NCBI GenBank assembly: GCA_001899635.1
Contig: MKVQ01000016.1
Span: 217,178-281,177 of the forward strand
From: Myxococcales bacterium 68-20
Lineage (GTDB): Bacteria; Myxococcota_A; Polyangia; Polyangiales; Polyangiaceae
Direction of reading: 5' to 3'
DNA: 64,000 nucleotides
The notes beneath the pieces were generated by a model. That model was not told the origin of the DNA and did not search any database. It worked only from the letters and a program-made list of their open reading frames with translations. Positions 28,052 to 57,851 of this stretch are shown piece after piece. Every line of letters begins with the position of its first letter. Within the stretch, counting starts at the first letter, position 1. The position numbers were made by a program, and so were the translations under genes.

Positions 28052-28363
28052 ATGGCCGTCCAGCAGCAGGCTCTGGCACGAACGGCGGACGTCTCGCTCG
28101 CGGACGTCCTCGAGCGGGTGCTCGACAAGGGAATCGTGATCGCTGGCGACATCAAGCTTTTCATCGGCCAGGTGGAGCTCTTGACCCTGCAGATCCGGCT
28201 GGTCGTGTGTTCAATCGACAAGGCGAAGGAGATGGGTATGGATTGGTGGACGGGTCACCCCGCCTTCAGTCCCTACAAAGAGCCGCAGCGTGGCGCGCCG
28301 GAGGAGCCGCCACGGAAGCCGGAGGAGCCGCCACGGAAGCCGGAGGAGCCGCCACGGAAATAG
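28052..28363 (+). CDS. gvpJ: Gas vesicle protein GvpJ with proline-rich repeat tail
   Basis: This 103-residue protein has the GvpA-like fold of Gvp[21 protein letters not shown], a strand LFIGQVELLTLQIRLVV, and DKAKEMGMDWW. That last motif is also seen in cyanobacterial GvpJ. GvpJ is a minor vesicle component or nucleation factor. The C-terminus is three copies of the heptad EEPPRKP, encoded by 21-bp DNA repeats at 28301-28360. Cyanobacterial GvpJ also carries C-terminal repeats, though of a different sequence. A Shine-Dalgarno sequence GGAAAGGA precedes the ATG. The next gene, gvpH, starts 29 bases after its stop. Confidence 0.86.
   Translation: MAVQQQALARTADVSLADVLERVLDKGIVIAGDIKLFIGQVELLTLQIRLVVCSIDKAKEMGMDWWTGHPAFSPYKEPQRGAPEEPPRKPEEPPRKPEEPPRK
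28301..28360 (+). repeat. 21-bp coding tandem repeat in gvpJ
   Basis: Units at 28301-28321, 28322-28342 and 28343-28360 (the last shortened by the stop) are essentially identical. They encode EEPPRKP. Identical codon use shows recent expansion. Confidence 0.9.
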
Positions 28364-36283: not shown

Positions 36284-36520
36284 TCACGCGCTAGCGGTAG
36301 TCGGCATGGCCGCGGTCGCGGTCGCAGCCACGGCGTCGGCGTACCGGAGATACGTGTCGACCGACGCGATGACGACGCGCGCCTGAATGCCGATAATTTC
36401 GATCCCCACCAGCGAGACCTTCACCCACGCATCGATGACGATGCCCTTGTCCAGGATGAGGTCGATTACCTCCGCTAGGCCTCCGCCGGATGGACCGCCC
36501 TGTCTCTGCACCTGTGCCAC
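36284..36520 (-). CDS. gvpA: Gas vesicle structural protein GvpA (copy 1)
   Basis: This 78-residue GvpA closely matches the usual consensus: [50 protein letters not shown]. The start is GTG 36520, with a strong Shine-Dalgarno sequence (GGGAGG, 6-base spacer) identical in layout to copy 2. It is the first gene of the minus-strand gvp operon, so it is probably the main shell protein, highly expressed and followed by assembly genes. The two copies are also alike just outside the coding sequence, on both sides. Confidence 0.92.
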
Positions 36521-43048: not shown

Positions 43049-44170
43049 ATGTCCAGGGAAACCGTTCTCATCACCGGTGGCGCAGGCTTCATCGGGTCGC
43101 ACCTCGCCGACGAGCTGCTCGCACGCGGGTACGCTGTTCGCGCGCTCGACAATCTCGCGCCTCAGGTTCACGGCGAAGAGAAAAAGCGGCCAGCCTATCT
43201 CGCGAAAGACGTCGAGCTTCACCTGGGTGACGTTCGAGATCCCGCTGCTGTCGATCGCGCGCTGGAAGGCGTCGATGCTGTATTCCACTTTGCCGCAGCT
43301 GTCGGTGTCGGCCAAAGCATGTACGACATCGACCATTACACCTCCGTCAACAACGGTGGAACGGCCATCTTGTTCGAACGGGTACTGAAGCGCAAGGTGG
43401 GCCGTTTCATCGTCGCATCGAGCATGAGCGTGTACGGTGAAGGACTCTTCCGTGATCCACGCGGCAACGTGCGTGAAGGGCACGGACGGTCGCTCGACCA
43501 GCTCAAACGAGGCGTGTGGGAGCTCACGGACGAAGGCGGCTGCGTGCTCTCGCCGATTCCGACACTCGAAACGAAGCAACCCGCGCTCGAGTCGATCTAC
43601 GCCCTTTCGAAATTCGATCAGGAGCGAATGAGCCTCCTTCTGGGACGCGCCTACGGCATCCCGACCGTGGCACTCCGCTTCTTCAACGTATTCGGAACAC
43701 GGCAGGCCCTTTCCAACCCGTACACCGGGGTTCTCGCCATCTTCGCATCACGGCTGCTGAACGGAAACCGACCGCTCGTCTTCGAAGACGGCAAGCAGCA
43801 ACGCGACTTCGTGAGCGTGAAGGACGTGGCGCGCGCCTGTTGCCTCGCGCTCGAAAGCGACGATGCAACTGGCCACGTGATCAACATCGGCAGCGGACGA
43901 GCTCACTCGATCGAAGACATTGCGCTTCACATGGCCGATGTCATGGACAGGCGGTCGCTCGTCCCCGAGATCACGGGCAAGTACCGGATGGGCGACGTTC
44001 GACACTGCTTCGCCGACATATCACTCGCGCAGCGCCTACTCGGCTACGAGCCGTCCGTAGGCCTCGATGAAGGGCTCACGGAGCTCGCCACCTGGCTCGA
44101 TGGCCAGGTCGCGCGGGACCGCGTGGTGGAGGCACGAGCCGAGCTCGAAGCGAGAGGGTTGACGCTATGA
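43049..44170 (+). CDS. NAD-dependent epimerase, dTDP-rhamnose 4-epimerase-like
   Basis: This 373-residue extended SDR has the NAD motif TGGAGFIGSHLADE, Asp in VRALDNLAPQ, and catalytic Ser with YALSKFDQE (Tyr and Lys). The motif RFFNVFGTRQALSNPYTGVL is shared with dTDP-L-rhamnose 4-epimerase-type enzymes. The long insertion around SPIPTLETKQPALES also fits that group. It would interconvert a nucleotide-activated hexose or deoxyhexose. It is the first gene of the 11-gene operon, and its stop overlaps the next start by 4 bases. Confidence 0.85.
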   Translation: MSRETVLITGGAGFIGSHLADELLARGYAVRALDNLAPQVHGEEKKRPAYLAKDVELHLGDVRDPAAVDRALEGVDAVFHFAAAVGVGQSMYDIDHYTSVNNGGTAILFERVLKRKVGRFIVASSMSVYGEGLFRDPRGNVREGHGRSLDQLKRGVWELTDEGGCVLSPIPTLETKQPALESIYALSKFDQERMSLLLGRAYGIPTVALRFFNVFGTRQALSNPYTGVLAIFASRLLNGNRPLVFEDGKQQRDFVSVKDVARACCLALESDDATGHVINIGSGRAHSIEDIALHMADVMDRRSLVPEITGKYRMGDVRHCFADISLAQRLLGYEPSVGLDEGLTELATWLDGQVARDRVVEARAELEARGLTL

Positions 44171-45225
44171 CTACCCTCGTTACCGGAGGCGCCGGCTTCA
44201 TCGGCTCGAACGTGGTCAATCGCCTGCTCCAGGCGGGCGAACGCGTGCGCGTCCTCGACAACCTCTCGCGAATGGGCGTCGAACGGAACGTCGGTTGGCT
44301 GAAAGAGTGCCATGGCGATCGATTCGAGCTCGTGGTCGCCGACGTGCGCGACGCCAGCGCGATCGATGCGGCCCTGTATGGCGTCGCTCATGTCTTCCAT
44401 TTCGCCGCGCAGGTCGCCGTGACGACGAGCCTCGACGACCCTCGTGCGGATTTCGCCGTCAACGGCCTCGGAACCCTGAACGTGCTCGAGGCCGCGCGGC
44501 GCATGCAGCAACCGCCGAGCATCCTCTACACGTCCACCAACAAGGTCTACGGCGCGCTCGACGATGTCTCGCTCGAGGCCACGTCCGCGAGGTACGAGCC
44601 TACCAATCACGACCTGCGAACATTCGGAGTAGCCGAGGATCGTCCGCTCGAGTTCCATAGTCCGTACGGCTGCAGCAAGGGCACGGCCGACCAATACGTG
44701 CTCGACTATGCTCGAACCTACGGGCTCGCAGCGTCGGTCCTCCGCATGAGCTGCATCTACGGACCTCGCCAGTTCGGCAACGAGGACCAAGGATGGCTCG
44801 CCCACTTCCTGATTCGCGCGCTGCGCGGGGAGCACATCACCATCTACGGCGACGGGCGCCAGGTCCGCGACGTCCTGTTCGTGGATGATCTCGTCGATGC
44901 CATGCTCCTCGTTCGAAGCAGAGCGCAGGAGCTCGCCGGCCGCGTCTTCAACGTCGGCGGCGGTCCCGATAGAACGCTCTCCCTCGTCGAGCTCCTCGAT
45001 CGAGTCGAGCGTCTGACCAAGAAGGGCACGCCCTTACTCTTCGAGCCCTGGCGGCTAGCCGATCAACGGTGGTACGTCTCGGACCCGCGCGCCCTGATGC
45101 GAGCCGTGAGCTGGCGGCCGCGGATCGGCATCGAAGAGGGCGTCTCGCGTCTGCACGCGTGGCTCGTCGAACAACCGGACAATCGGACGGCGAAGAACCA
45201 GTCGAGAGTCGAGGTAGTGCCGTGA
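44167..45225 (+). CDS. NAD-dependent epimerase, CDP-paratose 2-epimerase-like
   Basis: This 352-residue extended SDR has TGGAGFIGSNVVNRL at the N-terminus, STNKVYGAL, and a Tyr-Lys pair in SPYGCSKGTADQYVLDYA. It also carries the CDP-paratose 2-epimerase-like run SCIYGPRQFGNEDQGWLAHF with YGDGRQVRDVLFVDD. The characterised relative converts CDP-paratose to CDP-tyvelose; here the substrate is unknown. The start overlaps the upstream gene by 4 bases and the end overlaps the radical SAM start by 4. Confidence 0.83.
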   Translation: MTTLVTGGAGFIGSNVVNRLLQAGERVRVLDNLSRMGVERNVGWLKECHGDRFELVVADVRDASAIDAALYGVAHVFHFAAQVAVTTSLDDPRADFAVNGLGTLNVLEAARRMQQPPSILYTSTNKVYGALDDVSLEATSARYEPTNHDLRTFGVAEDRPLEFHSPYGCSKGTADQYVLDYARTYGLAASVLRMSCIYGPRQFGNEDQGWLAHFLIRALRGEHITIYGDGRQVRDVLFVDDLVDAMLLVRSRAQELAGRVFNVGGGPDRTLSLVELLDRVERLTKKGTPLLFEPWRLADQRWYVSDPRALMRAVSWRPRIGIEEGVSRLHAWLVEQPDNRTAKNQSRVEVVP

Positions 45226-46517
45226 AGATCGCGCTCGTCAATCCTGCCTGGTCCTTCCAGGGGAGCATCTACTTCGGATGCCGCGAGGCGCATCTGCCGC
45301 TCGAGTACGGCTATGCGCAAGCGCTGCTCGAGGGGGCAGGACATGACGTGCTCCTAGTCGACGCCCAGCTGAGGGCGCTGGACTCTGCCGACGTCCGCGC
45401 GGAGCTCGCTCGCTTCCGGCCGCAGATGACCGTGCTCACCACGGCGCCGAGCTATCTCTTCTGGCGCTGCGCGCCTCCCGAGCTACGCGTCCCGATGACG
45501 ACCGCGGAGGCCATCCGAGACGTGGCTGGCTGCCTCGTCATCGTCGGCCCGCACGCCTCGACGACCCCGCGAGCGACCTTGAAGAAGCTCGGAGCCGACT
45601 TCGCCATCGTCGGCGAGTGCGAGGACGTCCTCGTCGCCCTCGCATCATCACCGGATCGAGATGCACGACTACGCTCGGTGGTCTGGCTCGACGAGCTCGG
45701 TTCGCTCGGCGGCAATGGGGAGAAGAACGCAACGAAGATGTCGGAGCTTCCGGCGCTGCGTTGGTCGCGAGAGCTCCTCGACCGCCATATTCATCACCAC
45801 CATCGATTCGATCGCCCGGCCCAGGGGAGCGGCGCCGAGGTCGAAGCTTCCCGCGGATGCCCGTATCACTGCACCTTCTGCGCGAAGGACAACTTCCGCA
45901 ACGGGTTCCGCAAGCGCCCGCTCGCGACCGTCCTTGCAGAGCTCGATGAGCTGATCGGGAACGGCGTTCGCTATGTCTACTTCATCGACGAGATCTTCTT
46001 GCCGGACAAGAAGCTGCTCGAGGCGCTCGTGGAACGGGACATCGAGTTCGGCGTCCAGATGCGCATCGACAACTGGAGCACGGAGATGCTCGATCTACTC
46101 GGTGCGGCCGGCTGCGTGTCGATCGAAGCGGGGATGGAGAGCATCACCGAGCGCGGACGCTCGTTGCTCGCGAAGAACTGCAAGTTGACGACCGAGGAGC
46201 TCACGAGCCGCCTCATCCACGCGAAGCGAGCGGTGCCCTTCGTCCAGGCCAACCTGCTCGATTCGAGCAGTGATCCAAAAGAAGACGTCCAGGCATGGCG
46301 CAGGCGGCTGCACGACGCGGGAGTCTGGGCGAACGATCCCGTTCCACTCTTCCCGTATCCCGGTTCCCCGGAGTTCACCCTTCGCTTCGGCCACTGCGAG
46401 GACGATGCATGGGAGCGCGCCCACGCTCACTACCTCCGCGAGTTCGCCGCATTCAGTGACGTCCAGGACGAGCGGCCATGTCCGCTCTTCGAGCTCGAGC
46501 GAGTGAGCCATGATTGA
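45222..46517 (+). CDS. Radical SAM protein with B12-binding-type N-terminal domain
   Basis: This is a 431-residue protein. The iron-sulfur cluster motif CPYHCTFC is at 213-220, followed by the SAM barrel (YVYFIDEIFLPDKKLLEALV, then CVSIEAGMESITERGRSLL). The N-terminal ~170 residues have the alternating strand/helix pattern of a cobalamin-binding domain (LPLEYGYAQALLEGAGHDVL, GCLVIVGPHASTTPRAT), although the DxHxxG motif is not evident. Similar B12-type rSAM proteins occur in oligosaccharide clusters and may methylate or rearrange a sugar. Start is GTG 45222, overlapping the upstream stop. The longer frame from 45069 lies within the epimerase gene. Confidence 0.85.
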   Translation: MKIALVNPAWSFQGSIYFGCREAHLPLEYGYAQALLEGAGHDVLLVDAQLRALDSADVRAELARFRPQMTVLTTAPSYLFWRCAPPELRVPMTTAEAIRDVAGCLVIVGPHASTTPRATLKKLGADFAIVGECEDVLVALASSPDRDARLRSVVWLDELGSLGGNGEKNATKMSELPALRWSRELLDRHIHHHHRFDRPAQGSGAEVEASRGCPYHCTFCAKDNFRNGFRKRPLATVLAELDELIGNGVRYVYFIDEIFLPDKKLLEALVERDIEFGVQMRIDNWSTEMLDLLGAAGCVSIEAGMESITERGRSLLAKNCKLTTEELTSRLIHAKRAVPFVQANLLDSSSDPKEDVQAWRRRLHDAGVWANDPVPLFPYPGSPEFTLRFGHCEDDAWERAHAHYLREFAAFSDVQDERPCPLFELERVSHD

Positions 46518-47676
46518 GCCCCGCCGTCCGGGCACGATTCGCGGGCTCCGCCTGCTGATGACAACCGACACCGTCGGGGGCGTCTTCACGTACGCGATGA
46601 CGCTCGCCGCCGGGCTCGTCGAACGCGGTGCGGAGGTTCACCTTGCGACCATGGGGCCGGCATTGAAGCCGTCTCAACGGGACGCTGCCAAGGACGTCGC
46701 CGATCTGGTCGTCCACGAGAGCACGTTCGCGCTCGAGTGGATGCCCGAGCCTTGGGAAGACGTGGAGCGAGCCGGGGAGTGGCTACTCGAGCTCGAGAGA
46801 CGTGTCGCGCCCGACCTCGTGCACCTCAACGGCTACGTCCACGGGGCAACCGCGTTTCGCGTACCGATCGTCGTCGCCGGACACTCGTGCGTCCTCTCGT
46901 GGTGGGAAGCCGTAGTGGGTGAGCCGCCTCCTCCGGAGCTCGCGCGCTATCGAAGCGAGGTCCAACGCGGGATCCGGAGCGCTGCGGCCGTCATCGCCCC
47001 GACCTCCGCAATGATGCGGTGCCTGGAGCGCCACTACGGGCCGGTCGCGACTGGCGTCGTCGTAGCAAATGGAGTCCGCGCGCCGCTCGGGACACCGCAC
47101 GCACGCAAAGAGATGGCGGTCCTGGCCGCCGGTCGTCTGTGGGACCGGGCAAAGAACATCGAAGCACTCTCGCGCGCTGCACCGTCCTTTCCCGGCCCCG
47201 TGCGAGTCGCAGGCTCCGACCAGCTCCCGGACGGCAGCCGCCGCGTGTTGCCACACCTGACGGCGCTCGGGTGGCTCGACGCCGAAGCGCTCGGACGCGC
47301 CATGGATAGCGCTGCCATCTTCGCTCATCCCGCACGGTACGAGCCATTCGGACTCTGCCCCGTCGAGGCCGCACTCCGCGGATGCGCGCTGGTACTGGGC
47401 GACATCGAGAGTCTTCGCGAAGTATGGGGCGATGGAGCACTCTTCGTCGCTCCAAACGACGACGAAGCGCTCTCCCATGCTCTTCGTAGCCTCGCTCTGG
47501 ACGATGAGCTCCGCCGGGACCATGCGGCGCGCGCCACGACTCGGGCAGCAACGTTCACGGCGACGCGGATGGTCGAGCAGACGGCCACGGTCTACCTGCA
47601 GGTCCTCGGTGGCGGCTGCACGTCGCTGGATCCGATACGCGGCCAGAAAGGAACGGCCTCGCCGTGCGCATCGTGA
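46510..47676 (+). CDS. GT4-type glycosyltransferase
   Basis: This 388-residue GT-B glycosyltransferase has LLMTTDTVGGVFTYAMTLAA at the acceptor side. The nucleotide-sugar side has AAGRLWDRAKNIEAL and FAHPARYEPFGLCPVEAALR, whose Glu-x7-Glu-like pattern (EPFGLCPVEA) is typical of family GT4. It would transfer a sugar from the nucleotide donors made by its neighbours to a lipid or glycan acceptor on the cytoplasmic side. It overlaps the rSAM gene by 8 bases and the next glycosyltransferase by 13 bases. The last ~20 residues are variable. Confidence 0.85.
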   Translation: MIEPRRPGTIRGLRLLMTTDTVGGVFTYAMTLAAGLVERGAEVHLATMGPALKPSQRDAAKDVADLVVHESTFALEWMPEPWEDVERAGEWLLELERRVAPDLVHLNGYVHGATAFRVPIVVAGHSCVLSWWEAVVGEPPPPELARYRSEVQRGIRSAAAVIAPTSAMMRCLERHYGPVATGVVVANGVRAPLGTPHARKEMAVLAAGRLWDRAKNIEALSRAAPSFPGPVRVAGSDQLPDGSRRVLPHLTALGWLDAEALGRAMDSAAIFAHPARYEPFGLCPVEAALRGCALVLGDIESLREVWGDGALFVAPNDDEALSHALRSLALDDELRRDHAARATTRAATFTATRMVEQTATVYLQVLGGGCTSLDPIRGQKGTASPCAS

Positions 47677-48827
47677 TCTTCTGCCATTCGCTTGCATCCG
47701 ACTGGAATCACGGTAACGCGCACTTCCTCCGTGGCGTCGTCACCGAGCTCGTCCATCGAGGCCACGAGGTCCGAGCCTACGAGGACGAGAACGCCTGGAG
47801 CGCGCAGAACCTCGTTCGCGATCACGGTCCCGCGGCGCTCGAGCTGGCCCTGCACGCGTATCCGTCGGTGCGTCCCATTCGCTACGTCGACGCAGAGCTC
47901 GACGTCGACGAGGCTCTCGACGGAGCCGATCTCGTGCTGGTCCACGAGTGGAACAGCCACACGCTGGTCGCACGCATCGGTGCACACAGAAAGAAGGCCG
48001 ACTCACGGTACCGGCTGCTGTTCCACGATACCCATCATCGCTCCGTGACCGACGAGGCGGCGATGCGTCGATACGACCTGTCCGGATACGACGGCGTTCT
48101 CGCGTTCGGCGCCGCCGTCGCCGATGTCTATTCAAGATCGGGTTGGGCGAACAAGGCCTTCGTCTGGCACGAAGCCGCCGACGTGCGTGTCTTCAGGCCG
48201 CTCGAACCATCGAGCGAACCGGACGGCGATCTCGTCTGGATCGGGAACTGGGGTGACGACGAGCGAACGAGCGAGCTGCTCGAAATGCTCCTCGATCCCA
48301 TCCGCGATCTCGGGCTCGCGGCACGCGTCCATGGGGTGCGCTACCCACCCGAGGCGCTTCGCATGCTGGACGAGCGCAAAATCGAGTACGCGGGCTGGCT
48401 CGCGAACTTCCGCGTCCCCGAGGTGTTTGCGTCCTTCCGCGTGACGGTCCACGTGCCGCGACGACCTTACGTCGAAGCGTTGCCTGGTATCCCCACCATC
48501 CGCGTCTTCGAGGCGCTCGCCTGCGGGATCCCCCTCGTCAGCGCTCCCTGGAGCGATGCCGAGGGGCTGTTCACTCCGGGCCGCGACTACCTCGTCGCCC
48601 ACGACAGCGCCACCATGCGAGACCATCTCCGAGCGCTCCTTTCGGACGAGGCCGCGCGACGAGAGCTCGCGACTCACGGCCTGAGCACGGTGCTCGAGCG
48701 CCATACGTGCGCTCATCGCGTCGACGAGCTCCAGACGATCGCTCGCGACCTAGGGGTACGCGGAGCTGTCTTGGCCTCCTCGAAGGCCGAACGGCGAGCC
48801 AAGACCGCAAGCGGAGCTCACACATGA
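47664..48827 (+). CDS. CgeB-like glycosyltransferase 1
   Basis: This 387-residue GT-B protein of the CgeB/GT1-like group starts at GTG 47664 (MRIVIFCHSLASDWNHGNAH). The donor half has LVWIGNWGDDERTSELLEML, ARVHGVRYPPEA, and the C-terminal IRVFEALACGIPLVSAPW followed by LFTPGRDYLVAHD, the usual late motif. The SDWNHGNAHFLRG start parallels the SSWGNGHATTYRA type of its neighbours, so these genes are diverged paralogues. It is in the operon with overlaps on both sides. Confidence 0.82.
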   Translation: MRIVIFCHSLASDWNHGNAHFLRGVVTELVHRGHEVRAYEDENAWSAQNLVRDHGPAALELALHAYPSVRPIRYVDAELDVDEALDGADLVLVHEWNSHTLVARIGAHRKKADSRYRLLFHDTHHRSVTDEAAMRRYDLSGYDGVLAFGAAVADVYSRSGWANKAFVWHEAADVRVFRPLEPSSEPDGDLVWIGNWGDDERTSELLEMLLDPIRDLGLAARVHGVRYPPEALRMLDERKIEYAGWLANFRVPEVFASFRVTVHVPRRPYVEALPGIPTIRVFEALACGIPLVSAPWSDAEGLFTPGRDYLVAHDSATMRDHLRALLSDEAARRELATHGLSTVLERHTCAHRVDELQTIARDLGVRGAVLASSKAERRAKTASGAHT

Positions 48828-49927
48828 AACGACCGCTCGAGATTGCGTTCTTCGGCTCGAGTCTCGTCTCCGCATACTGGAACGGGGCAGCCACGTATTA
48901 TCGGGGAATGCTCCGCGCTCTGCACGAGCGCGGACATCGGATCACGTTCTTCGAGCCCGATGCCTACGAACGGCAGGCGCATCGCGACATCGACGATCCT
49001 CCCTACGCAAAGGTCGTCGTCTACTCCGGGACCGACGAAGGAGCGGCGCTCGGCATGCTCGAACGAGCACGCACCGCAGACGTCATCATCAAGGCGAGCG
49101 GGATCGGCGTCTTCGACGAGCTGCTCGAGCGTGAGGTCGCGCGCGCCCGGCGCCTCGGCTCATTGGTCGTGTTCTGGGACGTCGACGCACCGGCGACCCT
49201 CGATCGATTGCGGAACGATCCCGGAGATCCATTCCGAGCGCTGGTTCCGAGCTACGACCTCGTCCTGACCTATGGCGGCGGCCCTCCGGTCGTCCAGGGC
49301 TATCAGGACTTTGGGGCCCGCCACGTCGTGCCCATCTACAATGCGCTCGACCCCGATACGCATTTCCAGACCGCACCGGACTCGCGCTTCGCGGCCGATG
49401 TGTCGCTGCTCGCTAATCGACTTCCGGACCGCGAAGCGCGCATCGGAGAGTTCTTCTTCCGGGCAGCGACCGCTCTGCCGGACCATCGGTTCCTGCTCGG
49501 GGGCAACGGCTGGCATGACAAGCCCCTACCCGGAAACGTGCGGATGGTGGGGCACGTCTACACGGCCGATCACAACGCCTTCAACGCGAGCACCTCGTTC
49601 GTGCTCAACGTGGCCCGTGACAGCATGGCAACGTGCGGGTGGTCTCCAGCAACCCGCGTGTTCGAGGCTGCCGGAGCAGGAGCGTGTCTGATCACCGATG
49701 TCTGGCAAGGAATCGAGGAGTTCCTCACTCCCGGAGCGGAGGTCCTCGTAGCCGACGACGGCGAGGCGGTGGCTCGTCACGTGCGGGACACACCGGCCAC
49801 ACGCGCGCGCGTGATCGGCGAAGCCGCAAGGAGGCGAGTGCTCGCCTATCACACCTACGCGCAGCGTGCGCGGATCGTCGAGTCACTCCTCGATACGGGG
49901 CAGCACCCGAGGGAGGTCAGCCGATGA
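48824..49927 (+). CDS. CgeB-like glycosyltransferase 2
   Basis: This 367-residue CgeB-type GT-B protein opens with LEIAFFGSSLVSAYWNGAAT and YYRGMLRALHERGHRITFFE. The later TRVFEAAGAGACLITDVWQG and EFLTPGAEVLVADDGE are the donor-binding hallmark. ATG 48824 overlaps the upstream stop; the open frame to 48707 is internal to that gene. The acceptor halves of the three consecutive CgeB-like genes differ enough to suggest that each adds a different residue or makes a different linkage. Confidence 0.83.
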   Translation: MKRPLEIAFFGSSLVSAYWNGAATYYRGMLRALHERGHRITFFEPDAYERQAHRDIDDPPYAKVVVYSGTDEGAALGMLERARTADVIIKASGIGVFDELLEREVARARRLGSLVVFWDVDAPATLDRLRNDPGDPFRALVPSYDLVLTYGGGPPVVQGYQDFGARHVVPIYNALDPDTHFQTAPDSRFAADVSLLANRLPDREARIGEFFFRAATALPDHRFLLGGNGWHDKPLPGNVRMVGHVYTADHNAFNASTSFVLNVARDSMATCGWSPATRVFEAAGAGACLITDVWQGIEEFLTPGAEVLVADDGEAVARHVRDTPATRARVIGEAARRRVLAYHTYAQRARIVESLLDTGQHPREVSR

Positions 49928-51057
49928 AGACGTCTTCCGAACGTCGGCGCTTCGTCGTCCTCGGGCTCTCGATCACGTCGTCGTGGGGCAATGGGCACGC
50001 GACGACCTATCGAGCGCTCTTGCGGCAGCTGGCAGCTCTCGGCCACGAGATCACATTCATCGAACGCGATCTGCCGTACTACGCGGCAAACCGCGACCTG
50101 CCAGCCGCTCCCTATGCCCGCACCTGCCTCTACTCCTCCCTGGAAGAGCTCTTCGACACTCATCGAACCGCCGTGCGCGACGCCGATCTCGTCGTGGTCG
50201 GCTCCTACGTACCCGAGGGCATCGCCGTAGGCCGGTGGGTGCAAGACCTCGCTCCTGGGCGGAGCGCGTTCTACGACATCGATACGCCGGTCACCCTCGC
50301 CGATCTCGCGTCGGGACAGTGCACCTATCTCGCGCCGGAGCTGATCCCCGGGTTCTCTCTCTATCTCTCGTTCACAGGAGGCCCGACGCTCGACTTCATC
50401 GCGAGCAGGTACGGCGCGCCCTGCGTGCGTCCGCTCTATTGCTCGGCGGACCCGGACACGTACTACCCCGATCGTGTGTTGACCTCGCTCGACCTGGGCT
50501 ACCTGGGCACCTACAGCAGCGACCGCCAGCCCGCGCTCTCGCGCCTGCTTCTCGAGCCGGCGCGGCAATGGAGCGACGGTAGATTCGCCGTAGCCGGTGC
50601 ACAATATCCCGCCACGCTCGCCTGGCCCGCGAACGTGCGTCACATTGCGCATCTTCATCCTGCCGAGCACCGCCACTTCTACGGGGCACAGCGCTTCACG
50701 CTCAATGTCACACGAGAAGCGATGGTACGGCTCGGCTTCTCACCCAGCGTTCGCCTCTTCGAGGCCGCGGCTTGCGGCGTTCCGATCATCTCCGACGAGT
50801 GGGCGGGTCTCGCCGAGTTCTTCGAGCCCGGTCGCGAGATCTTCGTTGCCCGAACGATGGAAGAAGCGCTCGCGATCGTGCGCGATCTTCCAGAGAAGGA
50901 GCGGGTCGCCGTCGCGACTGCCGGACGTGAGCGCTTCTTGCGCGAGCACACCGCGCGAGCACGAGCGCTCACACTGGATGGCTACACGCAGGAGCTGCTC
51001 GAGCAAAAGGGAGCTCGGACGCGTCCGAAGCCGACACAACCGAGGGTCCAATCATGA
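49924..51057 (+). CDS. CgeB-like glycosyltransferase 3
   Basis: This 377-residue CgeB-type GT-B protein opens with FVVLGLSITSSWGNGHATTY and LGHEITFIERDLPYYAANRD. The late motif is VRLFEAAACGVPIISDEWAG with FFEPGREIFVARTMEE. It is strikingly close to the minus-strand gene at 54478 (LSVSSAWGNGHATLW, FFERDMPWYAQNRD, LFEAAACGVPIISDHWAG), so the two are recent paralogues. ATG 49924 overlaps the upstream stop, and the end overlaps the next SDR start by 4 bases. The specific sugar is unknown. Confidence 0.84.
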   Translation: MKTSSERRRFVVLGLSITSSWGNGHATTYRALLRQLAALGHEITFIERDLPYYAANRDLPAAPYARTCLYSSLEELFDTHRTAVRDADLVVVGSYVPEGIAVGRWVQDLAPGRSAFYDIDTPVTLADLASGQCTYLAPELIPGFSLYLSFTGGPTLDFIASRYGAPCVRPLYCSADPDTYYPDRVLTSLDLGYLGTYSSDRQPALSRLLLEPARQWSDGRFAVAGAQYPATLAWPANVRHIAHLHPAEHRHFYGAQRFTLNVTREAMVRLGFSPSVRLFEAAACGVPIISDEWAGLAEFFEPGREIFVARTMEEALAIVRDLPEKERVAVATAGRERFLREHTARARALTLDGYTQELLEQKGARTRPKPTQPRVQS

Positions 51058-52067
51058 GGAGACATCACGCACTAGTGCTTGGTGGAGCGGGATTCGTCGG
51101 ATCCCATCTCTGCGATCGACTGCTCGCTCGCGGCGACACGGTGTACTGCTTCGACAACCTGGAGACAGGGCGCCTCGAGAACATCGCGCATCTCGACGAT
51201 CACGAGCGTTTCGTGTTCGTCCGTGGAGACGTCGTCGTTCCGTTCCAGTTCCCAGTCGATCGCATCTACAACCTGGCCTGTCCTGCGAGCCCGCCGCGCT
51301 ACCAGGTCGATCCGGTGAAGACCACGCTCACGAGCGTGCTCGGCACGCTCAACGCTCTCCGTCTCGGCGCACGATCGGGGGCTCGAGTGTTCTTCGCGTC
51401 GACGAGTGAGGTCTACGGCGATCCCGAGGTGCATCCGCAGCCGGAGGTCTACCGCGGCTGCGTGAACACGGTCGGACCGCGCGCTTGCTACGACGAGGGA
51501 AAGCGCTGTGCCGAGTCTCTGATGACGGACTTCGCACGCCAACACGGGGTCGAGATTCGCATCGCTCGCATCTTCAACACGTACGGGCCGCGAATGGACC
51601 CAGCCGATGGTCGGATCGTCTCCAACTTCATCACGCAGGCCCTGTGCAGCGAGGATCTCACCGTCTACGGGGATGGGACGCAGACGCGTAGCTTCTGCTA
51701 CGTCGACGACCTCATCGACGGCATCGTCGCGCTGATGGATCATCCGACCTTCTCGGAGCCGGTCAATCTCGGGAATCCGGACGAGTTCACGGTGCTCGCG
51801 CTCGCCGATCTCGTCCGCGAGCTCACGCGGTCCGAATGTGGCCTCGTGTTCGGGCCGCTCCCGGAAGACGATCCGAAGCTCCGGCGCCCGGTCGTCGACC
51901 GTGCGCGCGACCTCATCGGCTTCCGCCCGAAGGTGAAGCTTCGCGAGGGCCTCGAGCGCACCATCGAATACTTCGAGGCGCAGCTCGAAGCCGAGCTGTC
52001 GGGTTCGGGAAGGCGCCTCTTCGGCCAACGCCACAGACCCGGCCGCCGCGCCGCGACTGGAACCTGA
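51054..52067 (+). CDS. UDP-glucuronate decarboxylase-like SDR
   Basis: This 337-residue extended SDR has the NAD motif LGGAGFVGSHLCDRLL, Asp in YCFDNLETG, and YNLACPASPPRYQVDPVKT. It also has the Tyr-Lys pair in ACYDEGKRCAESLM and IFNTYGPRMDPADGRIVSNF. These are the hallmarks of UDP-xylose synthase, which turns UDP-glucuronate into UDP-xylose. The UDP-glucose dehydrogenase at 61604 would supply its substrate. Together they imply a xylose or another pentose in the product. The C-terminus has a basic extension. Confidence 0.87.
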   Translation: MRRHHALVLGGAGFVGSHLCDRLLARGDTVYCFDNLETGRLENIAHLDDHERFVFVRGDVVVPFQFPVDRIYNLACPASPPRYQVDPVKTTLTSVLGTLNALRLGARSGARVFFASTSEVYGDPEVHPQPEVYRGCVNTVGPRACYDEGKRCAESLMTDFARQHGVEIRIARIFNTYGPRMDPADGRIVSNFITQALCSEDLTVYGDGTQTRSFCYVDDLIDGIVALMDHPTFSEPVNLGNPDEFTVLALADLVRELTRSECGLVFGPLPEDDPKLRRPVVDRARDLIGFRPKVKLREGLERTIEYFEAQLEAELSGSGRRLFGQRHRPGRRAATGT

Positions 52068-52078
52068 GGAGATGGACC

Positions 52079-52867
52079 ATGTGGGGCATCGTTCCGGCCG
52101 CCGGCATCGGAAGCCGCATCCAGCCACTGGCCTGCAGCAAGGAGCTCCTGCCGATAGGCAGCGTTGACGAGGGCGGAGTCCTGCGGCCTCGTGCCGTGAG
52201 CGAATACCTCGTCGATCGTCTGGTCCTCGGCGGCGCAACGAAGATCGCGTTCGTCATCTCTACCGCCAAGGCCGACATGGTCGAGTACTACGGCGCCGGA
52301 AGCGAGACGACCCCGGTCGCGTACGTCGTCCAACCCGAGCCGCACGGGCTCTGTGACGCTCTCTTCCGCGCGCTGCCGCTGGTAAGAGACGAGGAGCACG
52401 TGCTCGTCGGTCTGCCGGACACGATCTGGTTCCCCGATGGCGCGCTCGCCGAGCTCGGCGAGGAAGACCTCTCGTTCCTCTGCTTCCCAGTCGACCGGCC
52501 CGAGCTCTTCGATGCAGTCGATGCCGACGCCGCAGAGAACGTGCTCGAGGTGCAGGTGAAGGACGTTCGAGCGAGGACGCACTGGATCTGGGGTGCGTTC
52601 AAGGTGAAGGGCAACGTGCTCCGGCAGCTTCATTCCCTGTGGGTCGAGCGGAGCCAGAGCGATGCCTACCTCGGCACGCTGGTGAACGCTTGGCTTGCGC
52701 GCGGAGGCAGGGCGCGAGCTCGCAAGGTGGGCCGCTCCTACGTCGACGTCGGCACCATCGACGGATACCGCGAAGCCGTGAAGGCAACCGGAACCACCAG
52801 CGGTGTGGCTCGCGTCGCGAACGGCCGCCGCGCGGCCGGGGCGACGACCCCGAGGACGGGATCATGA
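52079..52867 (+). CDS. Sugar nucleotidyltransferase-like protein
   Basis: This 262-residue Rossmann-type protein opens GIVPAAGIGSRIQPLACSKE, a variant of the GxGxRxxPxTxxxPK signature of sugar-1-phosphate nucleotidylyltransferases. PEPHGLCDALFRALPLVRDE and LVGLPDTIWFPDG (Asp for metal) follow. It probably activates a sugar phosphate with an NTP. The start has a clear Shine-Dalgarno sequence (GAGGAG). This is the only gap in the operon (11 bases after the previous stop). It overlaps the methyltransferase by 4 bases. Confidence 0.82.
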   Translation: MWGIVPAAGIGSRIQPLACSKELLPIGSVDEGGVLRPRAVSEYLVDRLVLGGATKIAFVISTAKADMVEYYGAGSETTPVAYVVQPEPHGLCDALFRALPLVRDEEHVLVGLPDTIWFPDGALAELGEEDLSFLCFPVDRPELFDAVDADAAENVLEVQVKDVRARTHWIWGAFKVKGNVLRQLHSLWVERSQSDAYLGTLVNAWLARGGRARARKVGRSYVDVGTIDGYREAVKATGTTSGVARVANGRRAAGATTPRTGS

Positions 52868-53577
52868 ATCGAGCAGAGATCCAGCGGCAGGTCGCAGAGC
52901 TCGGGCCCTGGTTCCACAACCTCGAGCTCGGAGGCGTCATGACGGCTCCGGCCCACTTCCTCGGCGACTATCCACGTCAGAAGTGGAAGCGCTTCCAACA
53001 TGCGATCCCCTCCGATCTGCGCGGCAAGACCGTGCTCGACATCGGCTGCAATGCCGGCTTCTACAGTCTAGAGATGAAGCGCCGCGGTGCGAAAGCGGTC
53101 GTCGCGATCGACACTAGTGACCTCTACCTCGCCCAGGCGCGCTTCGCCTCGAAGGTCACCGGGATCGAGATCGACGTCCGAAAGCTGGACACCTACGACG
53201 TCGCCGAGCTCGGGACGAAATTCGACATCGTCCTCTTCATGGGCGTCCTCTATCACCTGCGCCATCCGCTGCTTGCGCTCGACCTGATCCACGAGCACGT
53301 CGTAGGCGACACGATGATCTTCCAGAGCATGCAGCGAGGCTCGCACGACGTGCTTCCTCTGACCGAAAACTACCCATTCTCGGAGACCGAGATCTTCGAT
53401 CGAGCGGAGTACCCGAAGATGCATTTCGTCGAAAATCGCTACTCGGGAGACGAAACCAACTGGTGGATCCCGAACCGAGCGTGTGTCGAAGCGATGCTGC
53501 GAAGCTCGGGATTCCGCATCGAGACGCATCCCGAAGAGGAAGTGTACGTGTGCCGAGTCGAGGGAGGGGAGCGATGA
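52864..53577 (+). CDS. SAM-dependent methyltransferase (Rta_06860-like)
   Basis: This 237-residue methyltransferase has a SAM-binding motif KTVLDIGCNAGFYSLEMKRR (~56-75), AIDTSDLYLAQARF, and FDIVLFMGVLYHLRHPLLAL. The C-terminus ends in a strand pair with EVYVCRVEGGER. From memory it resembles the family named after Ramlibacter Rta_06860, which occurs in the same gene neighbourhood in other proteobacteria. It could methylate a sugar. ATG 52864 overlaps the nucleotidyltransferase stop, and its own stop overlaps the next start. Confidence 0.84.
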   Translation: MNRAEIQRQVAELGPWFHNLELGGVMTAPAHFLGDYPRQKWKRFQHAIPSDLRGKTVLDIGCNAGFYSLEMKRRGAKAVVAIDTSDLYLAQARFASKVTGIEIDVRKLDTYDVAELGTKFDIVLFMGVLYHLRHPLLALDLIHEHVVGDTMIFQSMQRGSHDVLPLTENYPFSETEIFDRAEYPKMHFVENRYSGDETNWWIPNRACVEAMLRSSGFRIETHPEEEVYVCRVEGGER

Positions 53578-54464
53578 CCGTCGAAGCCGTGATGCTCTGG
53601 AACGAGCCGAACAACCTCTCCCATTGGGACTTCCACATGGATGAGGGCTGGAAGATCTTCGGAGCGATGACGAAGCTCGCGGGTAAGGAGATCGCGCGTG
53701 AGAAGCCGGGGCTCACACGCGTGCTCGGGGGGATGTCCCCAATCGATCCCGCGTTCTTGAAGAACCTCGAGGGAAAGGGCGTGCTCGACGCGGTCGACGC
53801 CGTCGCTGTCCATGGTTTTCCCCTCGACTGGAATCACTGGCAGATTCACGAGTGGCCGGAGAAGCTCTCGGAGATCCGCACGGTGACGCAGAAGCCGATC
53901 TGGGTGAGCGAGGTAGGCGTCTCGACGTTCGGCGCGGAGGAGGTCCAGGACTTCGGGCTGAAGCGTACCGCCGAGCTGCTCGTCGGTCGTGCTCCACGCA
54001 TCCACTGGTACAGCCTCTATGACTTGCCTCGGGCGTGGCCGGCGACCACCCGACATCGAGAGGCGGAAGGCTCATCGTACTACCGGCACTTCTACATGGG
54101 ACTTCTCCGCGAAGATGGGACGCCGAAGCAAGCGCTGCATCGCTTCGCCGACTACACGCCCGAGCTCGGCATCTGTCAGTGGTTCCACTACGAGGACCAC
54201 CGGCTCGAGGATGCCGTCGATTGGCTTCGTCGGCTCGGTGTCCGTCACCTCCGAACGGGTCTCTCATGGGCCGACAGCCACCGGCCGAACGCCGATGCAT
54301 GGTTCGATCGGCAGATGAAAGCACTCGAGTCGTTCGACGTGACGGTGACCTTCTGTTTCACACCGGGGGCGCGCGGTCTTCGCCCCGATCACACATCGCC
54401 ACCGCAGCGCGTGGAGGAGTTTGCGGAGTTCTGCACCCGGATGGTGCGTCGCTACGTCGTTTGA
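53574..54464 (+). CDS. Clan GH-A-like glycosidase with circularly permuted barrel
   Basis: This is a 296-residue protein. The acid/base Glu11 lies in VMLWNEPNNL and the nucleophile Glu113 in PIWVSEVGVS, spaced as in clan GH-A (GH39/GH5-like). The order is unusual. In ordinary GH-A barrels the NEP motif is near residue 130-150, after the first three strands. Here it is at residue 8-13, and the segment that looks like strands 1-3 (DAVDWLRRLGVRHLRTGLSW, FDRQMKALESFDVTVTFCF, VEEFAEFCTRMVRRYVV) is at the C-terminus. This suggests a permuted TIM barrel. It is the last gene of the operon. It may trim or transglycosylate the product. Confidence 0.75.
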   Translation: MTVEAVMLWNEPNNLSHWDFHMDEGWKIFGAMTKLAGKEIAREKPGLTRVLGGMSPIDPAFLKNLEGKGVLDAVDAVAVHGFPLDWNHWQIHEWPEKLSEIRTVTQKPIWVSEVGVSTFGAEEVQDFGLKRTAELLVGRAPRIHWYSLYDLPRAWPATTRHREAEGSSYYRHFYMGLLREDGTPKQALHRFADYTPELGICQWFHYEDHRLEDAVDWLRRLGVRHLRTGLSWADSHRPNADAWFDRQMKALESFDVTVTFCFTPGARGLRPDHTSPPQRVEEFAEFCTRMVRRYVV

Positions 54465-54477
54465 GACGTCGCGTCGC

Positions 54478-55533
54478 TCACCGAGTGACGAGCTCGAGTA
54501 GCTGGCGCGCACGACGCTCTGCGGTGTGCTCGGCGAGCACGCGCTCACGCGCGCGTCGCGCAACGGCTTCGAGCTCGCCTTCGCCGACCTGGAGCGCTGC
54601 CACCACGTCGTCGGTTACCCGAGCAACGAGGATCTCGCGCCCGGTCTCGAAGAAATCGCCGAGCCCAGCCCAGTGGTCGCTGATGATGGGCACCCCACAT
54701 GCCGCCGCCTCGAACAGGCGTCCGGAAGGACACCATCCGAGCTCGGCCATCGCGCCCCTAGTGACGTTGAGCGTGAGGCGCGACGATCCGTAGAATGCCG
54801 GGTGCTGCGTCGGAGGCACGTGGCTCCGCATCTCGAGATTTGCGGGCTTCGTCATGTGCGCCGGATACATGGGACCGCCGAGGAGGAATCGGCGTTCCGG
54901 GAGGCGAGTGGCCGGCGCGAGGAGGAAGTCCTCGACCTTCTGCTGCCGATCCGCCGCGTAGGTCCCGAGATAGGAGAGGTCGCACGTGAACGATGGGTCA
55001 TGCTCTCCACGCCCGTGGGTCGAGAGATCGACCGATCCATAGAGAGGAGCCGTACGGCGCGCCCCCAGCCGCGAGGCGAGCTGCTCGAGAGCGCGGCCTC
55101 CCGTGTAGCTCAGCACCATGTCGAATGGGCCGAGGCCGACGGTGGGCAAGTACTCGACGCGCTCTCCGCGGCCGAGACGTTCGAGAGTGACCGGCGTGTC
55201 GAGATCGTAGAACACGCGACGTGCGCATGATCGGAGCACGACCTCCGCCGCGGCGTCCGCATCGGGGCAAAAGGAGGTCACGATCCCCACGTCGGCCGAG
55301 CTCACGGCGGAGGCGGCCGCGCGCGCGACGTCTGGCCAGGAGCCATAGAGGACGATCTCGTAGCCGTCCCCTCGGTGGAGATCCCGATTCTGCGCGTACC
55401 AGGGCATGTCTCGCTCGAAGAACGCCACCTGGTGCCCGTCTCTCGCGAGTGCGCGCAAGAGCCCCCGCCACAAGGTCGCGTGCCCGTTGCCCCATGCCGA
55501 CGAGACGGACAGCCCGAAGACGACGAGTTTCAT
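54478..55533 (-). CDS. CgeB-like glycosyltransferase 4
   Basis: This 351-residue protein is closely similar to the CgeB-like gene at 49924 but on the opposite strand. Motifs are VVFGLSVSSAWGNGHATLWR, FFERDMPWYAQNRDL, TCDLSYLGTYAADRQQKVED and RLFEAAACGVPIISDHWAGL with FFETGREILVARVTDD. It lies 13 bases beyond the convergent operon end. It overlaps the upstream HD-protein gene by 4 bases (ATGA), so the two are translationally coupled. Confidence 0.84.
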   Translation of the reverse strand: MKLVVFGLSVSSAWGNGHATLWRGLLRALARDGHQVAFFERDMPWYAQNRDLHRGDGYEIVLYGSWPDVARAAASAVSSADVGIVTSFCPDADAAAEVVLRSCARRVFYDLDTPVTLERLGRGERVEYLPTVGLGPFDMVLSYTGGRALEQLASRLGARRTAPLYGSVDLSTHGRGEHDPSFTCDLSYLGTYAADRQQKVEDFLLAPATRLPERRFLLGGPMYPAHMTKPANLEMRSHVPPTQHPAFYGSSRLTLNVTRGAMAELGWCPSGRLFEAAACGVPIISDHWAGLGDFFETGREILVARVTDDVVAALQVGEGELEAVARRARERVLAEHTAERRARQLLELVTR

Positions 55534-56462
55534 CGAGCACCTCCCCGCGCCTCGAGAGGCCAGCCAGCCTCGGCAGCGACGAGCCGAGCGACATCCTCTC
55601 GCATTCGAATCGAGGGCAGCCTGGCGCGAGCTTCGGCCCCGAGGCGTGCAAGCGTGTACGCGACCTTCCTTCGCGTTTGGTCCAGCCCGAAGTAGTCGGC
55701 GTATCCCGGACTGTTCAACGAAAAGAACGAGAGGCCGTCGGCGTCGTTCAGGAGCTCGACGCCGGGATCCTGCCCTCTTCGCTCATGCACGGCAACGAGC
55801 TCGCGTACCCGCAACGCGATTGGCCGATCGACGCCAACATGGCAGAGGATCTCGTACGCGCGGTCGGCCCCCCGGCGGGCATGCCTCTCCTTGAACGCGG
55901 CATAGTCCGGTGCGTGATGCTCGACGCGGAGCTCGGCTTCGCTCTCGAGCCGCTCGATGTCGTGAAAGAGCGCGGCCAGCTGGACGGTCAGGTTCGCGTT
56001 CGGCGCAAGGCGCAGGGCCCACTGCCACGTGTCGATGGCATGGTCGAGGTCCGCCTTCACGAGCGGCTTCCCACAATCGTGCAGCTCCTCGTGAGCGAGG
56101 AGCACGTCGTCCCAGAGCGGCACCGATGAAGCCGCGTTGCGCCGATCGACGAAGCGCTGGCATCGAGTGAGCACTTCGATCGCGACTCCGGGGAGGTCGG
56201 CACCGCACCCGCGGACGACAATCGCAGTGGTGCGCCTTCGGCACGCGTCGAGCTCTCGGTCGACGGACATGAATACTTCGTCGTCGCGATACCAGCCATC
56301 CGTCTCGACGACGAGGGCATCGTTCCCCTCCCCGGGCGCCGCATTCTCGACCCGAACCGACGGCATCTCGATCTCGAGGCGCCGCAGCTTCGATGGACTC
56401 AGCGCCCCCTCGGTGACGACCAGAATCAGGCGCTGGAGCTTCGTTCGAGCTCGCGTCTCCAT
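55530..56462 (-). CDS. HD-domain protein
   Basis: This is a 310-residue protein. The C-terminal part has HD-phosphohydrolase-like features: His141 in KADLDHAIDTWQWAL, His167-Asp168 in AALFHDIERL, and a later Asp pair in LLNDADGLSFFSLN (~239-242). The N-terminal ~130 residues are beta-rich and include several positions typical of a nucleotide or sugar-phosphate-binding region (VVRGCGADLPGVAIEVLTRC). ATG 56462 is the first plausible start; the longer frame to 57080 is inside the inositol phosphate synthase gene. It is coupled to the CgeB gene by a 4-base overlap. The substrate is unknown; the adjacent sugar-nucleotide pathway is a hint. Confidence 0.7.
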   Translation of the reverse strand: METRARTKLQRLILVVTEGALSPSKLRRLEIEMPSVRVENAAPGEGNDALVVETDGWYRDDEVFMSVDRELDACRRRTTAIVVRGCGADLPGVAIEVLTRCQRFVDRRNAASSVPLWDDVLLAHEELHDCGKPLVKADLDHAIDTWQWALRLAPNANLTVQLAALFHDIERLESEAELRVEHHAPDYAAFKERHARRGADRAYEILCHVGVDRPIALRVRELVAVHERRGQDPGVELLNDADGLSFFSLNSPGYADYFGLDQTRRKVAYTLARLGAEARARLPSIRMREDVARLVAAEAGWPLEARGGAR

Positions 56463-56537
56463 GCGGCTCCACGATGCAAGTCGCACTCCACCAAAGTCAC
56501 CGGTCCTCGTCTTGCACGATCGAGAGCGGAGGTCCCC

Positions 56538-57851
56538 ATGCAAGTGCCATCCACCATTACCCCGGCGAGCGGACGAGTCGCAGTGCTCTGCGCCGGCATG
56601 GGTGCGGTCGCAACGACTTTCATGGCGGGTGTGCTGCTCGCGCGTCGCGGACTGGGGCAGCCCATCGGGTCGCTGACTCAGATGGGCACCATCCGACTTG
56701 GACCTCGCAAGGACGGGCGCGCACCGAAGATTGCCGACTTCATCTCCCTGGCAAGCCTCGACGACCTCGTCTTCGGTGGGTGGGACATCTTCCCGGACGA
56801 CGCCCACGCGGCTGCCGTCGACGCCGCTGTCCTGTCCGCCGCGGATCTCGACACCGTCCGGCACGAGCTCGCCCAGATCAAGCCGATGCGTGCCGTGTTC
56901 GACCCAGCCTATGTCCGCCGCCTGGACGGCAGCCACGTCAAGACAGGCAAGTCGAAGGCGGACCTCGTCGAACAGCTCCGCGACGACATCCGCGCGTTCC
57001 TCCGCCTCCACGAATGCTCGCGTGCAGTCTGCATCTGGTGCGGATCGACGGAGGTCTTTCAGGAACCCGCGCCCTGCCATGCGTCGGCGCAGGCATTCGA
57101 GAGAGGTCTACTCGCTAACGACAGCGCGATCTCGTCATCCCAGATCTACGCTTGGGCGTGCATGAAGGAAGGCGTTCCGTTCGCAAACGGTGCGCCGAAC
57201 CTGACCGTCGACTTTCCTGCAGCGTGGGAGCTCGCGCGTAGCTGCGGGGTCCCCATCGCCGGCAAGGACTTCAAGACCGGCCAGACCCTCATGAAGACGG
57301 TCATCGCTCCGGCACTGAAGGCGAGGATGCTCGGTGTGCGAGGATGGTTCTCCACGAACATCCTCGGCAATCGCGACGGCGAGGTCCTCGACGATCCAGG
57401 ATCGTTCAAGACGAAAGAGAACTCGAAGCTTGGCGCGCTCGAGCTCATCTTGCAGCCGAAGCTCTACCCCGCGCTCTACGATGAGATCTTCCACAAGGTC
57501 CGCATCGAGTACTACCCGCCTCGGGGCGACGCGAAAGAAGGCTGGGACAACATCGATCTCTTCGGTTGGCTCGGGTATCCGATGCAGCTCAAAGTCGACT
57601 TTCTCTGCCGCGACTCGATCCTCGCGGCACCACTCGTGCTCGACCTCGCGCTCTTCCTCGATTTCGCGAAGCGCGCTGGTCTCTCGGGCACTCAAGAGTG
57701 GCTCAGCTTCTACTGGAAGTCTCCGATGACGGCGCCGGGCCTCACTCCTGAGCACGACCTGTTCATCCAGCTCAAGAAGCTCAAGAACACCCTGCGGTGG
57801 CTCAAAGGCGAGCAGCTCATCACCCATCTCGGAAACGAGTATTACGACTGA
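56538..57851 (+). CDS. myo-Inositol-1-phosphate synthase
   Basis: This 437-residue enzyme of the INO1/MIPS family converts glucose-6-phosphate to inositol-3-phosphate. Visible motifs are the NAD loop CAGMGAVATTFMAGV, VFGGWDIFPDD, SGKDFKTGQT-type PIAGKDFKTGQTLMKT, LGNRDGEVLDDPGSFKTKEN and a DFLCRDSILAAPLVLDL region. A Shine-Dalgarno sequence (GGAGG) precedes the ATG. It is divergent from the HD-protein gene (75 bases). Its presence within a glycan locus suggests an inositol-containing acceptor, for example an inositol lipid or phosphoinositol-linked sugar. Confidence 0.9.
   Translation: MQVPSTITPASGRVAVLCAGMGAVATTFMAGVLLARRGLGQPIGSLTQMGTIRLGPRKDGRAPKIADFISLASLDDLVFGGWDIFPDDAHAAAVDAAVLSAADLDTVRHELAQIKPMRAVFDPAYVRRLDGSHVKTGKSKADLVEQLRDDIRAFLRLHECSRAVCIWCGSTEVFQEPAPCHASAQAFERGLLANDSAISSSQIYAWACMKEGVPFANGAPNLTVDFPAAWELARSCGVPIAGKDFKTGQTLMKTVIAPALKARMLGVRGWFSTNILGNRDGEVLDDPGSFKTKENSKLGALELILQPKLYPALYDEIFHKVRIEYYPPRGDAKEGWDNIDLFGWLGYPMQLKVDFLCRDSILAAPLVLDLALFLDFAKRAGLSGTQEWLSFYWKSPMTAPGLTPEHDLFIQLKKLKNTLRWLKGEQLITHLGNEYYD

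Follow-up and report, generated by a model that had tools for sequence, protein, structure and literature searches.

The 64-kb stretch of the 11.9 Mb genome of Myxococcales bacterium 68-20 analysed here (contig MKVQ01000016.1; hereafter, the window) carries an operon of eleven co-directional + strand genes, g1–g11, at positions 43049–54464. One product of this operon is g11 (53574..54464), a glycosidase-like protein of 296 residues which, based on its conserved motifs and a structural model, is a circularly permuted barrel of glycoside hydrolase clan A (clan GH-A), beginning at canonical strand 4 and ending after helix 3. The second main result concerns g3, a B12-binding radical S-adenosylmethionine (SAM) enzyme of family TIGR04295: nearly all of the examined genomes with g11 carry either the radical gene or a Gfo/Idh oxidoreductase, the latter accompanied by a zinc dehydrogenase where this was searched for, and none was found with both. 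Genomes from ten named phyla contain the pathway, the product of which is probably an O-methylated heteroglycan. The original prediction, an overlapping eleven-gene operon for the synthesis of a glycan, was mostly right but too narrow, and the permuted glycosidase escaped it.

A circularly permuted glycosidase barrel

Barrels of clan GH-A have an Asn-Glu pair on strand 4 and, on strand 7, the Glu that acts as nucleophile. WNEPNN, the first conserved motif of g11, usually sits in the middle of such a barrel. In g11 the strand-4 motif opens the protein, and the C-terminal end resembles strands 1–3. In an alignment of g11 with 77 relatives (alignment A2, from which L122, L123 and L126 were excluded), residues N10, E11 and E113 are invariant in all 78 sequences. 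The AlphaFold model based on these sequences (predicted local distance difference test, pLDDT, 88; predicted template modelling score, pTM, 0.88; low confidence at residues 156–168) contains eight strands of at least three residues, namely, 3–9, 48–54, 76–81, 109–114, 143–146, 199–201, 225–231 and 255–261, from which closure of the barrel can be surmised. The strand with the WNEP residues comes first, and the invariant residues fall on strands 3–9 and 109–114, with E11 as the predicted acid/base and E113 as the predicted nucleophile. Instead of the canonical order from 1 to 8, the strands of g11 thus run 4-5-6-7-8-1-2-3.

The position of WNEPNN at the start of the protein might also be expected if g11 were not permuted at all but represented a truncated or mis-called gene, the true N-terminal half of which had been missed. 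We consider this highly improbable. The half that would be missing sits at the C-terminus, the upstream gene overlaps g11 by 4 bases, and the model has the full set of eight strands. Furthermore, all 80 relatives are colinear with g11. These 80 were the best among at least 573 g11-related stretches that a scan of named genomes confirmed out of 596 candidates, so that conservation figures given here and below describe near relatives. A start codon lies at residues 1–3 in 79 of the 80, compared to a background of 0.17 in other three-codon windows, figures that should not be read as probabilities because the genomes are related.

Searches against known families gave a mixed picture. The only Pfam match of g11, to PF11790 (Glyco_hydro_cc), is below the threshold (19 bits versus a gathering score of 21). 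A rotated copy of the sequence gave no larger match (19.9 bits over the same stretch), which neither helps nor hurts the case for permutation. When the model was used for a structural search with VIA-align, the 50 full-chain rows comprised mixed triose-phosphate isomerase (TIM) barrels with Z-scores of 11.8–14.0, including GH20 enzymes, GH84-type O-GlcNAcases, methylene-tetrahydrofolate reductase and ketose epimerases. With Foldseek, the well-fitting matches from clan A (GH10, GH2-type glucuronidases and GH128) have a root-mean-square deviation (rmsd) of ~3–7 and cover 120–202 columns; GH5 matches of ~300 columns or more have an rmsd of 11–13. Such mixed matches would be expected from a permuted barrel, but are no proof on their own. 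We found no paper in the open-licence literature on circular permutation in connection with GH39, PslG or clan GH-A.

Comparison with a canonical sister domain and PslG

In three loci (L079, L089 and L120) the same cluster that encodes g11 also encodes a sister domain of canonical order, fused in front of the g2-type short-chain dehydrogenase/reductase (SDR). The domains of L089 and L120 match both halves of g11 in swapped order, and at the same cut-off that of L079 matches only the first half; when compared directly, however, the two halves each match the sister domain in all three loci. When the g11 sequence was doubled, it aligned to the L120 sister in a single stretch of 292 columns with 36% identity and 172 bits, compared to 103 and 79 bits for the separate halves; the corresponding scores are 120 bits in L089 and 112 bits in L079. 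Overall, the canonical copy is present in seven of the 51 g11 genomes searched. Since some genomes encode the unpermuted sister in the same cluster, nature provides here a clean experiment on the topology of a protein.

The model of the sister domain, built from three sequences, is weaker (pLDDT 68); of its eight strands, the fourth bears Asn-Glu and the seventh Glu. Its first Foldseek match is PslG, and its best structural rows are GH1-type enzymes with Z-scores of 16–17. The nucleophile position is occupied by Glu in L120 and by Ala in L089 and L079, where the sister domain (3024–3971 and 3724–4674 of the respective loci) may represent a catalytically dead partner. For the seven fused copies, which were examined in short loci, the catalytic residues were resolved by script in two.

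PslG, a GH39 glycosidase of the Pseudomonas Psl polysaccharide that is encoded in the polysaccharide operon, is, judged by sequence, the solved protein nearest to g11 and also to the sister domain. The sister profile finds PslG as one colinear stretch (E 4.5e-4), whereas the g11 profile finds it in two swapped halves (whole-sequence E 1.6e-6), as the strand order of PslG is canonical. Weighing against the permutation, the shorter of these two matches is weak by itself, with an i-Evalue of 5.1 compared to 0.0055 for the longer one.

A similar rearrangement is known from GH70, a family that belongs to a different clan and has different catalytic residues than clan GH-A. GH70 glucansucrases are described as circularly permuted relatives of GH13 with the barrel order alpha3-beta4 ... 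beta3 (PMC11046441), so that the catalytic (beta/alpha)8 barrel is cut next to strand 4, at nearly the same place as in g11. However, GH70 enzymes are large multidomain proteins with a signal peptide, whereas g11 is a short protein cut after helix 3.

Mutually exclusive presence of a radical SAM enzyme and a dehydrogenase pair

The g3 gene (45222..46517, +, with a GTG start) belongs to TIGR04295 with 695 bits, well above the curated cut-off of 400. The CxxxCxxC motif is conserved in the family (C213 and C217 in 24 of 25 sequences, C220 in 25 of 25, two too-short sequences having been dropped). Additional conserved cysteines are C20 and C298 (25 of 25) and C83 (24 of 25), one of which could serve as a hydrogen donor. 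Solved relatives of g3 are distant: the best are 6fd2, an apramycin oxidoreductase which we take to be AprD4, and 9ccb, both with E 1.4e-6.

Among the 80 loci, g3 is found in 14 and a Gfo/Idh oxidoreductase in 25, but never both. In 24 of the 25 Gfo/Idh loci, the gene is accompanied by a zinc dehydrogenase of the medium-chain dehydrogenase/reductase (MDR) family, which is adjacent in 22 and, in L079 and L089, separated by 4 or 9 kb; in L064, the view includes no more than a fragment of Gfo/Idh. By contrast, the 29 tabulated loci of genomes with the radical gene showed no such zinc dehydrogenase. Residues C47, H71, E72 and C131 of the zinc-ligand motif are invariant in 24 MDR sequences.

The same pattern was obtained in whole-genome searches. 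Gfo/Idh was found in none of the 24 g3 genomes and was present in genome G032, with all five controls recovered. A search for TIGR04295 gave no match in the 25 Gfo/Idh genomes, among them G032, but detected the family in four of the 11 genomes classed as undetermined; Gfo/Idh is present in exactly the remaining seven. In 32 further genomes, TIGR04295 was found in 14, Gfo/Idh in 14 others and neither in four. Taken together, 42 of the 92 g11 genomes have the radical gene only, 46 Gfo/Idh only, four neither and none both. The zinc dehydrogenase, searched for in 44 of the 92, was found in 0 of 20 radical-type, 20 of 20 Gfo/Idh-type and four of four neither-type genomes. The thresholds of these searches, 1e-30 for Gfo/Idh and 1e-50 for the zinc dehydrogenase, were chosen by us. 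For 24 genomes of the 92, Gfo/Idh was called from a match in the locus (five of them were also searched whole), including L064, called on a fragment of under 90 bits; the radical gene was called from the locus in 13 genomes.

On a g11 tree of 88 rows, at least 14 changes occurred between the two states, three of them forced by starred branches, compared to 29 in shuffles, and both states are found within each of Myxococcota, Acidobacteriota and Pseudomonadota. Of the 42 junctions between g2 and g4 in view, 19 contain g3, seven Gfo/Idh, two the zinc dehydrogenase alone and 14 nothing.

The examined genomes carry g3 or the zinc dehydrogenase, mostly with Gfo/Idh, and never both, which suggests that g3 acts on a carbinol carbon. 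A dehydrogenase pair can oxidise, or epimerise by oxidation and reduction, but cannot C-methylate; therefore, the exchange argues for carbinol oxidation or epimerisation by g3 and against C-methylation. Should both routes prove equivalent, g3 must catalyse a reaction that is also open to the pair of zinc dehydrogenase and Gfo/Idh, and the exchange rule makes the TIGR04295 family directly testable.

Several observations weigh against this interpretation. The NCBIfam families next nearest to g3 are the ladderane-type family, BchE, ApyD and the C-3 methylase HpnR, i.e., they include methylases, and the diol-dehydratase AprD4 is just the 12th of 19 matches. The four neither-type genomes have the zinc dehydrogenase but no detected Gfo/Idh gene. 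Since 14 of the 42 junctions are empty, the exchange does not always take place at one site. Finally, mutual exclusion would equally be expected of two routes that lead to different decorations, one being an alternative to the other. The latter point underlies a competing explanation, in which g3 is a C-methyltransferase, the dehydrogenase pair makes another decoration elsewhere and the exclusion reflects two types of glycan. The B12-binding domain of g3 (PF02310, E 1e-8) is typical of class B radical SAM methylases, and both HpnR and a C-methyltransferase family acting on ribosomally synthesised and post-translationally modified peptides (RiPPs) rank above AprD4. Nevertheless, we regard this alternative as rather unlikely, given that g3, Gfo/Idh and the zinc dehydrogenase can fill the same slot between g2 and g4 among otherwise like genes, and that the best solved relatives of g3 are the two structures named above.

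Carbinol chemistry by radical SAM enzymes has precedents on sugar and cyclitol carbons in aminoglycoside pathways, and in the biosynthesis of neomycin a zinc dehydrogenase is the counterpart of one of these enzymes, BtrN. In PMC10991966, BtrN is described as a radical SAM dehydrogenase and NeoN as an epimerase with Cys249 as the hydrogen donor; HygY is counted with these enzymes from a title cited there. Unlike BtrN and NeoN, g3 is a member of a different family and carries a domain for B12 binding.

Combining the two results, we tentatively propose, at somewhat less than even confidence for the statement as a whole, that g11 founds a new glycosidase family which originated by natural circular permutation within clan GH-A, and that TIGR04295 proteins are B12-type radical carbinol epimerases or dehydrogenases interchangeable with the zinc dehydrogenase and Gfo/Idh pair.

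Organisation of the operon

The eleven-gene layout was confirmed, and at nine of the ten junctions the genes do overlap: with the chosen starts, the gaps are −4, −4, −8, −4, −4, −4, −4, +11, −4 and −4, the only spacer being located between g8 and g9. The mechanically called open reading frames start too early for several genes; the likely starts are 45222 for g3, 48824 for g6, 49924 for g7, 52079 for g9, 52864 for g10 and 53574 for g11, and either 47664 or 47673 for g5. In L049, relatives of all eleven genes are arranged in the same way, and relatives of most are found in other loci, so they are not chance reading frames.

The functions assigned originally hold as well. The first two genes encode SDRs: g1 (43049..44170) is a 4-epimerase-like nucleotide-sugar epimerase (PF01370, E 2.4e-51; best PDB match 6wjb, E 2e-42) and g2 (44167..45225) a member of the CDP-tyvelose 2-epimerase family, aligned to solved members over residues 2–333 of 352 (9rl0, E 3e-81; 1orr, E 3e-74). 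Downstream of g3, g4 (46510..47676) is a glycosyltransferase of family GT4 (PF13439, PF00534), followed by three glycosyltransferases of PF13524, g5 (47673..48827, alternative start as above; E 4e-37), g6 (48824..49927; E 2e-40) and g7 (49924..51057; E 5e-38), which we call CgeB-like, assuming that the label used in the original prediction is right for this family. The g8 product (51054..52067) is an SDR of the UDP-glucuronate decarboxylase (UDP-xylose synthase) family, aligned to solved decarboxylases over residues 3–319 of 337 (2b69, E 1.1e-108), and g9 (52079..52867) is a sugar-1-phosphate nucleotidyltransferase (PF00483, E 1.8e-8). Finally, g10 (52864..53577) is a SAM methyltransferase of TIGR04290 (382 bits, cut-off 300), the closest solved relatives of which are EvdMO1, then an unnamed methyltransferase and then tRNA mo5U34 enzymes.

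TIGR04290 and TIGR04295 are hypothetical-equivalog families of NCBIfam, linked to the Ramlibacter Rta_06860 cluster, and their names give no product or pathway. In line with the earlier statement that no product is known, the open-licence literature yielded no paper on the cluster, on either family name or on the gene combination. Beyond what these family names convey, the present analysis describes the wider gene set, the permutation and the rule of exchange.

Distribution and conserved gene set

The operon was previously likened to clusters from Ramlibacter and other proteobacteria. The first part is correct, given that TIGR04290 is named after a Ramlibacter gene and four of the 80 loci are from this genus, but the second is too narrow, since only 30 of the 80 loci are from Pseudomonadota; as judged from record titles, the loci span ten named phyla, with two records unassigned. 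In a set of 116 kin genomes, the window's own included, TIGR04295 is above the cut-off in 11, and g10 and g11 co-occur in an identical set of 12, namely, the same 11 and G032. In Ramlibacter terrae CP053418 (L067), the matches to several genes of the cluster are broken into two or more pieces and that to Gfo/Idh contains an in-frame TGA, which suggests sequencing errors or decay.

Two blocks recur in the synteny survey, often with members missing or moved: DUF4202–CgeB-like–g9–g10–g11 and g1–g2–(g3)–g4–g5–g6–g7–(g8). The first block is divided in the window, where the DUF4202 and CgeB-like genes lie on the minus strand directly after g11. Accordingly, whereas g1–g11 were rightly grouped together, the conserved set reaches beyond 54464 and also takes in g12 (54478..55533, −), a fourth CgeB-like glycosyltransferase (PF13524, E 1.2e-39) with relatives of at least 40% identity in 51 of the 80 loci, and g12b (55530..56486, −), a DUF4202 (HD-type) protein (PF13875, E 1.6e-24) that belongs to the set in some lineages and reaches the same identity in 11.

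A second, partial paralogous cluster is present elsewhere in the genome of the window (G000, contig C6, L036 7741–18794). It contains two DUF4202 genes, two g1-type SDRs and relatives of g4–g7; within the 30 kb examined, there was no match to g2, g3 or g9–g11.

Proposed pathway and product

Taking gene content, the permutation, the exclusion in the examined genomes and the co-occurrence of g10 and g11 as the observed basis, we infer each reaction, the product and its export. We think it fairly probable, as a whole, that the operon represents one instance of a cytoplasmic pathway which is shared widely and yields an O-methylated heteroglycan, with carbinol chemistry by g3 and a permuted g11. 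Judging from the enzyme families, g9, g1, g2 and g8 would activate and convert the sugars, g2 as a C2-epimerase type and g8 as a UDP-glucuronate decarboxylase type of enzyme, g4–g7 together with g12 would build the chain, and g3 would carry out a radical oxidation or epimerisation at a single carbinol carbon, either in a sugar or in a cyclitol. A methyl group would be put on by g10, and g11 would probably trim or transfer residues of the same glycan. The latter is likely to happen inside the cell, because no strongly hydrophobic stretch is found in g1–g11, where the highest 19-residue hydropathy is 1.45.

The presence of sugar-nucleotide enzymes beside several glycosyltransferases would also fit a conventional O-antigen or capsule locus, the product of which would be a surface polysaccharide of a known kind. 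An MsbA-like ATP-binding cassette (ABC) exporter, g15 (59695..61470, −; 436 bits to MsbA, under the cut-off of 602), is encoded nearby, and its relatives (35–51% identity) lie inside or next to the cluster in three loci (L060, L105 and L107), making it a weakly linked candidate exporter. Nevertheless, this explanation is improbable. Membrane proteins of the Wzx/Wzy type (flippase and polymerase) were not found within g1–g11, consistent with the low hydropathy, and O-antigen loci of enteric bacteria are variable, whereas g11 relatives are 69–77% identical over ten named phyla.

We give about equally little credence to a product that is not a polymer but a small oligosaccharide or glycolipid built on inositol or a cyclitol. 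A myo-inositol-1-phosphate synthase gene, g13 (56538..57851, +; PF07994, E 4e-92), adjoins the cluster in the window and in nine more of the loci in view, IolG and IolM are among the best NCBIfam matches of the Gfo/Idh and zinc dehydrogenase partners, and g4 weakly matches MshA. However, the synthase is near the cluster in just six of the 80 relative loci, and the IolG and IolM matches are far under their cut-offs (108 of 355 and 104 of 450 bits, respectively). Inositol as a universal component was dropped for the same reason, the synthase being linked in few loci.

In the boldest and most speculative form of the proposal on TIGR04295, the g3-type step would turn a pentose of xylo configuration into one of ribo configuration. 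As a single carbon distinguishes xylose from ribose, a UDP-xylose synthase together with an epimerising step could account for ribose in such a glycan. This could explain the unusual ribose reported for the cyst polysaccharide of Ramlibacter tataouinensis. There, the gas chromatography finding was said to need verification and was then supported by mass spectrometry and nuclear magnetic resonance; no RNA was found, and uronic acids were not detected by colorimetry (PMC9658432). Speaking against this link, g8 is in view in just ten of the 80 loci and g3, as noted, in 14, many loci being cut off; therefore, no single sugar can be assumed.

Other genes in the window

A UDP-glucose 6-dehydrogenase type gene, g16 (61604..62941, −; TIGR03026, 409 bits), possibly supplies the precursor for g8; the link is weak, with a relative adjoining the cluster in L102 and L132. 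No RNA families were found in the 64-kb window. The gene at 63128–64000 (+), which continues past the end of the window, is 32% identical to a conserved neighbour of ~600 residues, D599. The representative of the latter has no match in Pfam or NCBIfam, and neighbours of this type recur in 22 of the 80 loci. Upstream of the operon, open reading frames in and around 28052–28363 and 36284–36520 resemble gas-vesicle proteins by eye.

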